This document shows positions 47,234-51,018 of a stretch of DNA of 64,000 nucleotides, piece by piece. The position numbers were made by a program, and so were the translations under genes. Below the pieces are notes generated by a model, which was not told the DNA's origin, ran no database searches, and was given only the letters and a program-made list of their open reading frames with translations. The stretch's first letter is position 1. Each line of letters starts with the position of its first letter. The DNA comes from Defluviicoccus sp. Lineage in GTDB: Bacteria > Pseudomonadota > Alphaproteobacteria > MPNO01. Location of the stretch: contig JAPPIT010000038.1 in the NCBI GenBank assembly GCA_028820505.1, positions 1 to 64,000 on the forward strand, written 5' to 3'.

Positions 47234-47424
47234 CTGTCCGTTTCGGATAGAAGCGCCTTTACGCCAGCCCGCCCCGTCATGGTCGGCGAGGCCGACCATG
47301 ACGGTAAAAAACGGACGAAGCGGTTCCAACTGACAGACCCGTTCTCGCCTGCACCGCGATGCGGGACGGGCACGGGCGAGGCGGCGGAGGGGCGTGGATG
47401 CCCGGAACAAGTCCGAGCATGACG
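47234..47424. repeat. Composite palindromic repeat, left of the zinc locus
   Basis: The 391-base gap 47231-47621 holds this element and the Zur-like operator. It starts CTGTCCGTTTCGGATAGAAGCG (47234), contains a self-complementary GTCATGGTCGGC / GCCGACCATGAC hairpin (47276-47302), then a block GGGCGAGGCGGCGGAGG and the 32-base repeat copy (47393-47424, one mismatch from 50987-51018). The same modules occur in the same order at 50867-51018. Remaining bases 47425-47555 show nothing recognisable. Confidence 0.78.
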
Positions 47425-47555: not shown

Positions 47556-47578
47556 AAGATGCAATATTATAACATTTC
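47556..47578. promoter_or_regulatory. Probable Zur (zinc uptake regulator) operator
   Basis: Within an AT-rich island, this 23-base site reads AAGATGCAATA-T-TATAACATTTC. The right half TATAACATTTC matches the enterobacterial and alphaproteobacterial Zur half-site exactly, and the left half matches 7 of 11 of its mirror GAAATGTTATA. It lies 44 bases before the start of the outer-membrane protein gene of the zinc locus. Zinc-bound Zur would repress the operon. Confidence 0.68.
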
Positions 47579-47621: not shown

Positions 47622-49154
47622 ATGTCGATAATCGCCAGATTCCTCCCGCTCGTCGTCCTTCCGATGATCGCCCTGCTCGCGGCGGCTCCCGCGGATGCGC
47701 AGTCGGCGGGACAGCCGACGGCGGCGGAGCTCGCCCGGCAGATCCAGGAAATAAAGCGCGACTACGAGTCGCGCATCCGGGCGCTCGAAGGCCAGCTCTC
47801 GAACCTGGAGAAGAAAAGTCAGGCCGAAGAGAAGAAGACCCCGGCTGCAACGCCGGCGAAAAAAGCGACGGCGGACAACGCGTTCAATCCGGCGATCGGC
47901 ATCGTCTTCGACGGCAGGTACGCCAGCTTCTCGGCCGATGAGTGGTCGAGAATTCCGGGCTTCGCGGTCGGTCACGAGGCGGAGCGCGCGCCGGAGGGGC
48001 TCTCCCTCGGGCACAGCGAGGTGACGGCTTCGGGCAATATCGACGACAAGTTTCGCGGCGCCCTCACCCTCGGTCTCCACGCGCATCCGGGCGAGGCGAC
48101 GGAGGTCGAGCTCGAGGAAGCCTATGTCCAGACCCTGCCCGGCGCCGGGCTGCTGGAAGGGATGCGGGTGAAGGCGGGCCGGGCGCTCTGGACCTTCGGC
48201 TATCTCAACGAGCAGCACGCGCACGGTGACGATTTCGCGGACCGGCCGCTGCCCTACCGGGCATTTCTCAACAACGCGTTCAACGACGACGGGGTGGAGG
48301 TATCCGTGGTGTTGCCGACCGAGGTCTACGCCGAACTCGGCGGCGGGTTGTTCCGCGGCGACGACACGCCGTTGTTCGGCGGTTCGGACAACGGGCTGCG
48401 GGCGCGCTCCCTCTATGCGCGGGTCGGCTGGGATATGGGCCGCGACGCCGCGGTGCGGGTCGGCGGGTATCTGCTGGACGGGAAGTCGCGCAACCGCGGC
48501 GGCGGCGGTCACGCCCACGCTAACGGTCACGGTCATGAGGACGAGCATGCCGACGAGCACGCCCATGAAGATGAGCACGATCACGAAGACGACCATGCCA
48601 ATGGGGAAGAGGAGCACGAGCACGAAGACGACCATGCCAATGGAGAGGAGCACGAGGACGAGCACGGGGAGGATTTTGCCAGTTTCTTCTCGGAGGGCAT
48701 GTTCACCGGCAACACGCGGCTCTACGGAATCGACGTCCGCTTCACCGTGGCGCCGACCGGCAACGCGCGTGAGAGCGAGCTGATCCTCCAGGGCGAGTAT
48801 TTCTGGCGCAAGGAAGACGGCACCTACACGCTGATGGAAGAAGAGGACGGAGAAGAGCATACCGAGAATTTGAAGACCGACTCCATCGCGCATGGCTGGT
48901 ACATCCAGGGAGTCTACAAGCCGGCGCCGAGATGGCGGATCGGCGCGCGCTACGCCCGGCTCTCCCCGCCGGACGACGCCGAGATCGGGCACAACCCCTA
49001 TGCCTTCGCGGCGATGGTCGACTGGTCCAATAGCGAGTTCGGGCGCGTCCGGCTGCAATACAACCACGAAGCGCTCGACGGCGACGAGGAGGACAACCAG
49101 ATCATGCTGCAGTACGTGATGAGCCTCGGCGCCCACGCCGCGCACAGCTTCTAG
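47622..49154 (+). CDS. Outer-membrane protein with histidine-rich loop, probable zinc-acquisition porin
   Basis: A 510-residue protein with a signal peptide (MSIIARFLPLVVLPMIALLA, then AAPADAQ), a coiled-coil segment (ELARQIQEIKRDYESRIRAL ... LEKKSQ), and a beta-rich barrel region ending in F. Residues about 295-350 form a loop with about 15 histidines among D and E (DNA carries a 39-base tandem duplication, 48582-48604 and 48621-48643). Neighbouring ZnuA and ZnuB genes and the Zur-like operator show it belongs to zinc uptake. The fold resembles ZrgA-like or zinc-regulated porins; the loop would capture zinc at the surface. It has no TonB box that I can see. Confidence 0.78.
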   Translation: MSIIARFLPLVVLPMIALLAAAPADAQSAGQPTAAELARQIQEIKRDYESRIRALEGQLSNLEKKSQAEEKKTPAATPAKKATADNAFNPAIGIVFDGRYASFSADEWSRIPGFAVGHEAERAPEGLSLGHSEVTASGNIDDKFRGALTLGLHAHPGEATEVELEEAYVQTLPGAGLLEGMRVKAGRALWTFGYLNEQHAHGDDFADRPLPYRAFLNNAFNDDGVEVSVVLPTEVYAELGGGLFRGDDTPLFGGSDNGLRARSLYARVGWDMGRDAAVRVGGYLLDGKSRNRGGGGHAHANGHGHEDEHADEHAHEDEHDHEDDHANGEEEHEHEDDHANGEEHEDEHGEDFASFFSEGMFTGNTRLYGIDVRFTVAPTGNARESELILQGEYFWRKEDGTYTLMEEEDGEEHTENLKTDSIAHGWYIQGVYKPAPRWRIGARYARLSPPDDAEIGHNPYAFAAMVDWSNSEFGRVRLQYNHEALDGDEEDNQIMLQYVMSLGAHAAHSF

Positions 49155-50081
49155 ATGGTGGCGGCGATGTCGAGACATCTGGCGCCGGCGCTGCTTGCCG
49201 CCTTCGCGGTCGTTGCGCCGGCCAGCGCGGCGGCCGATGCCAGGGTGTTCGCCTGCGAGCCGGAATGGGCGGCGCTGGCCAGCGAAATCGGCGGCGACAA
49301 CGTGACGGTCTACTCGGCAACCCACGGTCGCCAGGATGCCCATTATATCCGCGCACGGCCCAGCCTGATCGCGCAGGTGCGCCGCGCCGACATCGTGTTC
49401 TGCTCCGGCGCGGAGTTGGAGGTCGGTTGGCTTCCGGTGCTGATGGAGCGCGGCGCCCGGCCCGGCGTGCAACCCGGCCAGCCCGGACATCTCATGGCGG
49501 CCGACCACGTCGAAGTCATGGAGCGGCCCGAACGGATCGACCGCAGCCTCGGCGACATCCATCCCACCGGCAACCCGCACGTCCACCTCGACCCGGGCAA
49601 CATCGCGCGCCTCGCGGTCGAGCTGGCGGGACGGCTGGCGCGGGTCGATCCGGCCAACGAGGAAGCGTATCGGTCCCGGCTCGCGGATTTCGAGGCGCGA
49701 TGGGGCGCGGCGACGAAGCGCTGGCGCGCACGCGCCGAAGGGCTTCGCGGCACGAAGGTCGTCGTCCACCACGCCGCGTGGGTCTATCTGCTCGGCTGGA
49801 CCGATCTGGATCTGGTCGCCAGGCTGGAGCGGATCTCCGGGGTTCCGCCGACGGCATCCCACCTGCGGGATGTCGTCGAAAGGGTGCGGACGACTGGCGC
49901 CGCCGCCATTCTGCTCGCGCCGCACGATCCGGTCGACGCCGCGGACTGGCTGGCGGAACGGACCGGCGTTCCCGTCGTCGAGCTTCCCTTCACGGTCGGC
50001 GGGCAGGACGAGGCGGGCGATCTTTTCGCCCTGTTCGACGTCACGCTCGCGCTGCTGGAGAAAGCCCGCGATCGATCCTGA
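49155..50081 (+). CDS. znuA: ZnuA-like zinc ABC transporter binding protein
   Basis: A 308-residue periplasmic protein with a signal peptide (LAPALLAAFAVVAPASAA). Metal ligands of the cluster A-I family are visible: H in ATHGRQDAHYI, H in GNPHVHLDP, H in VVVHHAAW, and a final acid (GGQDEAGDLF). It lacks the long histidine-rich loop of E. coli ZnuA; that feature is in the upstream outer-membrane protein. Its start immediately follows the stop of that gene. Zinc is the likely ligand; manganese is less likely given the His-rich context. Confidence 0.85.
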   Translation: MVAAMSRHLAPALLAAFAVVAPASAAADARVFACEPEWAALASEIGGDNVTVYSATHGRQDAHYIRARPSLIAQVRRADIVFCSGAELEVGWLPVLMERGARPGVQPGQPGHLMAADHVEVMERPERIDRSLGDIHPTGNPHVHLDPGNIARLAVELAGRLARVDPANEEAYRSRLADFEARWGAATKRWRARAEGLRGTKVVVHHAAWVYLLGWTDLDLVARLERISGVPPTASHLRDVVERVRTTGAAAILLAPHDPVDAADWLAERTGVPVVELPFTVGGQDEAGDLFALFDVTLALLEKARDRS

Positions 50082-50862
50082 ACTGATCCTCATCGTCGGC
50101 CCGGCCTTCGCGGTCGGGCTGATCGTGTCGGCGATCCACGCGCCGCTCGGGATCGAGGTTCTGAAGCGGGGCATCGTGTTCATCGATCTCGCGACGGCGC
50201 AGATTATCGGCCTGGCGCTGGTGCTGCTCGTTCTCGTCTTCGACGAACCGTCGTGGCCGGTGCGCCAGATCGCGTCGTTCGGCGCGGGCATCGGCGTCGC
50301 GCTGTTCTTCCGGTGGATCGAGCGCGTGATGCCGGAGGAGCAGGAAGCGGTGATCGGCAGCTCGTTCATACTCGCCGCTTCGCTGGCGCTGCTGGCGCTA
50401 GCCAACGACCCGCATGGCGGCGAGGCGTTGCGCCACCTGCTGTCGGGCCAGATCCTGTTCGTCTCATGGGGCGACATCGCCGCGTTCCTGCCGGTGTACG
50501 GACTCGTCGCGCTGATCTGGATCGCGGTTCCGCGCGCGCGAAGCGGTGTCGGTTTCTTCGTGCTATTCGCACTGGCGATCACCGCGTCGGTTCAACTCGT
50601 GGGCGTCTACATGGTGTTCGCAAGCCTCATCTTGCCCGCGCTCGCGGCGCGTGCCGGCAGCGGATACGCCCTCCGCCGGGCGTTCGCGAGCGCGGCCGTC
50701 GCGGTGGTGGCGGGGGTCTCCATCTCGACCGTCGCCGACCTGCCGGCGGGTCCGTTTCTCGTGGTTTGCTTCGGCGTCTCGGCCGTGGCGACACGGTTGC
50801 TGTGTCGTCGCAAGGAACCGTCGGGCGGCGAGGACGACCCGCATCCGACCGCTCTCGCTTAG
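50071..50862 (+). CDS. znuB: ZnuB-like metal ABC permease, start codon uncertain
   Basis: A 263-residue permease with about seven helices, including the family signature APLGIEVLKRGIVFIDLATA and the later LLSGQILFVSWGDI. It overlaps the znuA end by about 11 bases. In frame there is no ATG, GTG or TTG between znuA's tail and GTG at VSAIHAPLG, which would delete the first helix. The likely start is ATC 50071 (after GGAGA) or CTG 50083. The matching ATPase gene (znuC) is not in the window, so it must lie elsewhere or be borrowed. Confidence 0.78.
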   Translation: MDPELILIVGPAFAVGLIVSAIHAPLGIEVLKRGIVFIDLATAQIIGLALVLLVLVFDEPSWPVRQIASFGAGIGVALFFRWIERVMPEEQEAVIGSSFILAASLALLALANDPHGGEALRHLLSGQILFVSWGDIAAFLPVYGLVALIWIAVPRARSGVGFFVLFALAITASVQLVGVYMVFASLILPALAARAGSGYALRRAFASAAVAVVAGVSISTVADLPAGPFLVVCFGVSAVATRLLCRRKEPSGGEDDPHPTALA

Positions 50863-50866
50863 CAGG

Positions 50867-51018
50867 CTGTCCGTTTCGGATAGAAGCGCCTTTACCTCTG
50901 CCTCCCGTCATGCCCGGACTTGTTCCGGGCATCCACGTCTTGCGGCATCGCGGTGCGGGCCGGGAGAGGGCGAGGCGGCGGAGGGACGTGGATGCCCGGA
51001 ACAAGTCCGGGCATGACG
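50867..51018. repeat. Composite palindromic repeat, right of the zinc locus
   Basis: It starts CTGTCCGTTTCGGATAGAAGCGCC like the copy at 47234. A perfect 32-base inverted repeat follows: CGTCATGCCCGG...CCACG (50906-50937) and its exact reverse complement (50987-51018), with 49 bases between them. Each arm is itself a TGCCCGGA/TCCGGGCA palindrome. The remaining 120 bases to the next gene hold no recognisable feature. The element could fold into a long hairpin and terminate zinc-locus transcription. Confidence 0.85.

Follow-up and report, generated by a model that had tools for sequence, protein, structure and literature searches.

A predicted outer-membrane porin with a histidine-rich surface loop heads a putative zinc-uptake locus in a bacterium labelled Defluviicoccus

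Results

The outer-membrane protein gene and its predicted fold

We analysed a 64,000-nt stretch of DNA (hereafter, the window), in which a gene for an outer-membrane porin-like protein (OMP) of 510 aa, P0001, is followed by genes for a substrate-binding protein (SBP) and a permease; all coordinates are those of the window and refer to the + strand unless otherwise indicated. The OMP gene (47622..49154) was recognised from its open reading frame, an AlphaFold2 model, Foldseek matches and the conservation of its family. Its product is laid out as a signal peptide (residues 1-26, 47622..47699; ADA|QS by inspection, helix 4-21 in the model), a predicted N-terminal periplasmic coiled coil (residues 34-71, 47721..47834; helix with pLDDT about 77-90 and weak matches to coiled-coil models) and a barrel.

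The barrel has no family match in Pfam, NCBIfam or PDB sequences. Precisely, P0001 gave no porin-family Pfam match at E<=1, no plug domain and no TonB-receptor Pfam match; Pfam scans of single family members and a profile search returned weak coiled-coil and generic-barrel matches alone, and the family profile retrieved from the PDB sequences, at E<=1, no porin and only a FapF coiled-coil fragment. The AlphaFold2 model (86 relatives in the alignment; pLDDT 83.9, pTM 0.77) has 16 strands if 126-129/132-139 is treated as one strand, and its confidence drops mainly in the signal region and the linker, over residues about 297-350 and at the six C-terminal residues. Foldseek matched this model to OprP with E=5.8e-12 (TM 0.51/0.62). 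The top matches were 2o4v, 4rjx and 4rjw, with 6eus also listed; the best solved structures were OprP, OprO, OmpT and chitoporin, and DcaP was listed too. The predicted model has the fold of the OprP/OprO/DcaP-like 16-stranded porins, but OprP, OprO and DcaP, its best fold matches, share only about 9-14% identity with it over the fold alignment, and P0001 differs from them in its conserved L3 His/Asp residues, its His-rich L5, its zinc operon and the absence of a Pfam porin match. We rejected its membership of the OprP/OprO phosphate-selective porin sequence family, because neither Pfam nor the PDB profile search gave a porin match, and also a TonB-dependent receptor of the ZnuD type, because P0001 has 16 strands and not 22, a coiled coil and not a plug, and no Pfam match.

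The periplasmic turns of the model (2-3, 4-5, 6-7, 8-9, 10-11, 12-13 and 14-15) are all short, with both termini placed on the periplasmic side; by strand parity of the predicted monomer, loop L5 is therefore expected on the extracellular face. L5 spans residues 294-359 (48501..48698), between strands 9 and 10, with pLDDT mostly below 55; in the model it is disordered and outward-facing. The original prediction, that a histidine-rich loop lies between barrel strands of an outer-membrane protein and that structure prediction would tell which side it faces, is borne out at this level. A smaller acidic insert, MEEEDGEEHTEN, was found by alignment in loop L6 (48834..48869; hairpin 386-408/411-435 in the model), and it is enlarged in the same relatives as L5.

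Conserved histidines

Two other parts of the protein are conserved across the family. The L3 motif NEQHAHGDDFADRPLPYR (48207..48260) sits in the loop of 30 residues that joins strands 5 and 6. Its H199 and H201 (NExHxHxDDFxDRP) show no variation in the 87-row alignment, D204 reaches at least 90% conservation there, and all relatives keep HxHxDDFxDRP. The C-terminal GAHAAHSF (49128..49151), which ends in the terminal Phe, follows the last strand and hence lies on the periplasmic side; for H505 and H508 the same alignment gives at least 90% conservation, and nearly all relatives keep GAHxAHxF. The conserved residues of L3 and of the C-terminus, and not the L5 tail, are the candidate metal sites of the family as a whole. 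In classical porins L3 folds into the pore and is usually the constriction loop; it would presumably do the same in P0001.

The operon partners

The OMP gene is followed by a gene for a ZnuA-like (cluster A-I) SBP without a His-rich loop (49155..50081; Pfam ZnuA, E=1.2e-38) and by one for an ABC-3 family permease (50071..50862; Pfam ABC-3, E=3.6e-15), which overlaps the SBP stop. The order OMP-SBP-permease, usually with overlapping or abutting genes, recurs in nearly all relatives, from Alphaproteobacteria to Dadabacteria and Vibrio. In the SBP, H63, H142 and H206 occupy the positions expected for the metal site of cluster A-I proteins; its best matches are zinc proteins, with a weak resemblance to manganese SBPs too. 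Between its first and second metal histidines the spacing (79) equals that of VPA1307 from V. parahaemolyticus, a protein tested as a zinc SBP (PMC3794297); the spacing to the third differs.

No ATPase gene adjoins the three genes. Outside the window, on contig 13 of the same genome (G000:C13:5-1241), a Fur-family gene, probably zur, is followed by an AztA-like ATPase gene at the contig end, and this ATPase is likely to be the missing importer subunit. AztB and AztC are the nearest NCBIfam models for the permease and the SBP, with AztC far under its cut-off, and AztA matches the ATPase well. We nevertheless rejected an AztABC importer by the curated cut-offs, since all three proteins score below them (AztC 70.5 vs 350, AztB 37.6 vs 280 and, for the contig-end ATPase fragment, AztA 208.9 vs 220); the window locus also differs from AztABC in opening with an OMP gene and in having no adjoining ATPase.

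The loop of the window SBP ahead of the second metal histidine has 45 residues with 3 His, and in all 95 partners examined it has 44-46 residues with 1-5 His, next to long and short OMP L5 alike. A trade-off between a ZnuA loop and an OMP loop was therefore rejected: this SBP subfamily lacks a buffering loop regardless of L5 length, so the loop did not move from ZnuA to the OMP. The contrast drawn earlier, of a ZnuA without a buffering loop beside an OMP with a His-rich one, holds for this locus, but the transfer that it implied does not. Direct handover of zinc from the loop to ZnuA, also suggested, is unlikely, as L5 lies outside, the SBP is periplasmic and the barrel stands between them.

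No ATG, GTG or TTG occurs near the expected permease start (50071-50110). Several long-loop relatives have an ATC codon in common there, which suggests that translation begins at a non-standard codon and is coupled to the stop of the SBP gene. Within 5 kb downstream of four sponge-type alphaproteobacterial loci (L069, L071, L105 and L112) BLAST found another SBP together with an OMP-like fragment, which suggests partial tandem copies of the operon. Direct copies of the 22-mer CTGTCCGTTTCGGATAGAAGCG lie on either side of the three genes (47234-47255 and 50867-50888); since the genome has 32 copies at up to 1 mismatch, we regard it as a dispersed repeat family.

Zur-box-like sites

Upstream of the OMP gene, on the - strand, lies a Zur-box-like operator, GAAATGTTATAATATTGCATCTT (47556..47578), matching 18/22 defined positions of GAAATGTTATANTATAACATTTC, which we take to be the Zur-box consensus and against which we scored all such sites. 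No other place in the 64 kb matches at 15 or more positions, and its score was never reached when the upstream region was shuffled 2000 times. Among 50 family loci, the window included, 27 have upstream sites at 15-19/22, against 1/50 shuffled controls; Vibrio campbellii has two just upstream of its OMP gene.

Genome-wide (5.5 Mb), the core motif occurs in 3 places. At the OMP locus it has no mismatch. With 1 mismatch it lies upstream of a paralogue of HisI (phosphoribosyl-AMP cyclohydrolase; G000:C14:3747), and hisI2 is listed as a zinc-limitation target in P. protegens (PMC6103462). The third place, between the GTP cyclohydrolase I gene (folE) and the divergent Fur-family gene with the AztA-like ATPase, has 2 mismatches, a level that nears the control count, and it leans on gene context. 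In three congeners, the OMP gene lies on a contig with a divergent Fur-family gene that resembles the one of contig 13. The operator-like site would place OMP-SBP-permease in the Zur regulon, and together with the ZnuA-like SBP and the ABC-3 permease it agrees with the earlier assignment to a zinc locus.

Composition and DNA repeat of loop L5

The His/Asp/Glu-rich segment of L5 (His 297-348) was the feature first noticed in this DNA. It lies in a real open reading frame and its composition was confirmed: residues 297-352 (56 aa) include 15 His together with 16 Glu and 10 Asp, whereas the remaining 450 aa of P0001 have 12 His. At the background of the rest of the protein, the binomial probability of at least 15 His in 57 residues is about 2e-11, and a six-frame scan of the window found no second stretch combining as much His and acid.

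The DNA of L5 contains an exact 23-bp direct repeat at lag 39 (48582..48604 and 48621..48643), which is the longest in the 64 kb among direct repeats with lags below 300. Identity over the best 39 bases is 36/39, so that the near-exact 39-base duplication originally described is exact for 23 bp and slightly generous in its wording for the rest. Tandem Repeats Finder reports a degenerate array at 48537-48661 (period 36/39, about 3.4 copies). When the segment was recoded synonymously, keeping the protein repeat and the local codon bias, a 23-bp run was reached in 118/3000 trials, and the DNA repeat is therefore modest evidence for one recent duplication in the window. The wider claim, that the loop grows by tandem duplication, draws independent backing from the growth and turnover seen in relatives.

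Comparison of loop length, proposed as a check, revealed strong variation among close relatives. The barrels of L035 and L069 are 98.5% identical and their loop edges are identical, with unrelated loop cores of DDDHDAH-type and EDEHAHEDEHGH-type repeats, both His- and acid-rich; other close pairs differ in L5 length by 1 to 26 residues. Single-base codon differences among L5 repeat units are synonymous in 167/417 cases vs 19-26% expected without constraint, an excess biased upward by the choice of the best-matching lag and hence supporting, not decisive. We infer that selection holds the composition of L5 rather than its sequence or length.

Distribution of the family and of long L5

The OMP family is present in 20/27 genomes of the order and 32/385 of the class sample, and in metagenome-assembled genomes (MAGs) labelled as several other groups; public plasmid records contain two distant relatives only. 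L5 length is bimodal: mostly, the loop either has 17-23 residues and 0-1 His or runs to 28-121 residues and contains up to 27 His. Most relatives have the short form, about 20 residues long and lacking His. In a barrel tree built without the loop columns, all L5 of 36 residues or more fall in one clade (support 88/89), made of MAGs of Alphaproteobacteria (including 'Defluviicoccus' bins), Gammaproteobacteria and Dadabacteria. In the partner SBP tree such a clade is rejected (AU p=0.002) and the Dadabacteria SBPs are placed elsewhere. Given these opposed trees, we rejected a single loop origin shared by the entire operon; it may be that the OMP gene travelled between phyla without its partners, or that the loop has two origins.

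Sources were traced among the long-loop records. The jk18x records come from Ircinia (PMC9531527) and the 277c record from Petrosia ficiformis (PMC8941161). From their names, we infer that the RHO, CAR, COS and APA records fit the sponge species of PMC8163846, and that bin95 and bin129 fit the Aplysina study PMC5649159. No source other than a sponge turned up for any record traced in the long-loop clade, a set that does not include SB0662, p16x, PNGco, Plut, OX638332 and CATOTB. The short-loop record OX638326 belongs to the same series as a Dadabacteria record, and the hosts of the two may be alike. The bacterium of the window is related to marine-sponge symbionts.

Two groups depart from this pattern. 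Three Dadabacteria loci (L129, L131 and L134) have a long, acidic L5 (41-43 aa, 15-17 Asp/Glu) with a single His. Vibrio campbellii LJC015 has the same three-gene operon, whose OMP, at about 35% identity and lacking the coiled coil, carries its own His-rich L5, HDHGHADEHGHDHSHG. This OMP falls outside the sponge clade in the tree, so His enrichment of L5 most likely occurred at least twice.

Discussion

We propose that P0001 is a Zur-controlled, zinc-dedicated porin feeding the adjacent ABC importer, and that in sponge-type lineages L5 serves as a surface zinc-concentrating tail; we assign this reading a probability of roughly 0.6. Low zinc would lift Zur repression of OMP-SBP-permease through the sites found. 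Zn2+, the presumed substrate, would pass the 16-strand barrel via a selective eyelet lined by HxHxDD of L3, and the gradient would be kept inward by GAHxAHxF at the periplasmic exit and by the high-affinity SBP. In sponge-type lineages L5 would have grown into a disordered His/Asp/Glu tail that raises local zinc at the pore mouth, and this tail probably collects zinc at the cell surface. The loop changes fast by repeat duplication and loss, presumably under selection.

This proposal best explains the conserved operon, the Zur-like sites and the zinc-regulon neighbours (zur/AztA-like ATPase/folE and the hisI paralogue), together with the AlphaFold2/Foldseek topology, the invariant H199/H201 and the near-invariant H505/H508. 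It also accounts for His enrichment arising at least twice in the same loop, for the composition kept between L035 and L069 and for the synonymous excess; we counted against it the His-poor acidic L5 of the three Dadabacteria loci and the short-loop relatives without a tail. Polyhistidine-acid loops usually have micromolar affinity for zinc, far above free zinc in seawater. An antenna of this kind may therefore hold little zinc, and with such weak affinity it would be most plausible as a concentrator where zinc is higher in the sponge interior, or where the loop strips zinc from weak ligands.

Some of the same observations could be read in other ways. The rapid swap of loop cores between almost identical barrels resembles surface arms races, long loops come mostly from sponge-associated MAGs, and some acidic loops in Dadabacteria are almost without His: the long L5 might be a variable polyanionic disordered shield or decoy against phages, sponge phagocytes or other contacts, on a barrel that imports zinc and with incidental metal binding. 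We consider this unlikely, because the composition stays narrowly His/Asp/Glu across phyla instead of diversifying, because a second His-rich L5 occurs in a seawater Vibrio, and because the loop sits in a zinc-locus protein. Somewhat less probable still is a barrel for chelator-bound zinc or another divalent metal (Cu, Ni, Co, Mn), with L5 binding that metal or docking a metal-carrying ligand. His/Asp/Glu loops do bind several metals, OprP-like barrels are often ligand-specific and the SBP weakly resembles manganese SBPs, but the Zur-type operators, the zinc-regulon neighbours and the zinc proteins among the best SBP matches all point to zinc.

The tandem arrays, the large length gaps between near-identical barrels and the existence of short-loop relatives could also reflect neutral low-complexity growth, in which L5 accepts insertions and the slippage of GAY/GAR/CAY codons, and functionless Asp/Glu/His runs build up. 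We find this improbable, and the least credible of the readings, given the synonymous excess among repeat units and a His-rich composition that is kept in most of the clade and recurs in the same loop in Vibrio.

As a zinc-dedicated porin, P0001 would share with known proteins the outer-membrane step of Zur-controlled zinc uptake, which in P. aeruginosa ZnuD (PMC10393844) and Caulobacter ZnuK/ZnuL (PMC4176598) occurs via TonB receptors. ZnuD-type receptors have 22 strands and a plug, whereas P0001 has 16 strands and an N-terminal coiled coil. A porin tied to zinc is known in MspD, which is induced by zinc starvation and ZUR deletion and acts in zinc homeostasis in mycobacteria (PMC13098993); for P0001 the link is suggested by the locus and the Zur-like sites. 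The His-rich loop of ZnuA and L5 of P0001 are both flexible His/acid-rich stretches in zinc importer systems, the former periplasmic on the SBP and the latter, by prediction, extracellular on the barrel. MspD is a mycobacterial MspA-type porin, with a fold unrelated to that of P0001. In the open-access literature searched, no porin of the P0001 kind is described.

Little is known of how zinc gets through the outer membrane when no TonB receptor is involved, and the P0001 family is a concrete candidate: a conserved, putative porin family that accompanies a zinc ABC importer and Zur sites, is covered by neither Pfam nor NCBIfam models and occurs in culturable hosts, e.g. Vibrio campbellii. More tentatively, and with the balance of our judgement somewhat against it, these proteins could form a new class of outer-membrane channels that are dedicated to zinc and independent of TonB, with an L3 HxHxDD eyelet and an ABC importer in the same operon, and whose surface metal-collecting tail was spread or selected among unrelated sponge-symbiont phyla and invented separately in Vibrio. 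A fast-changing His/Asp/Glu loop whose carriers are mostly sponge-associated bacteria from several phyla would link metal acquisition to life in an animal host. The L5 variants also form a natural series of disordered loops predicted to bind metal, in which the acidic L5 of L129, L131 and L134 offers a natural contrast to the His-rich versions.
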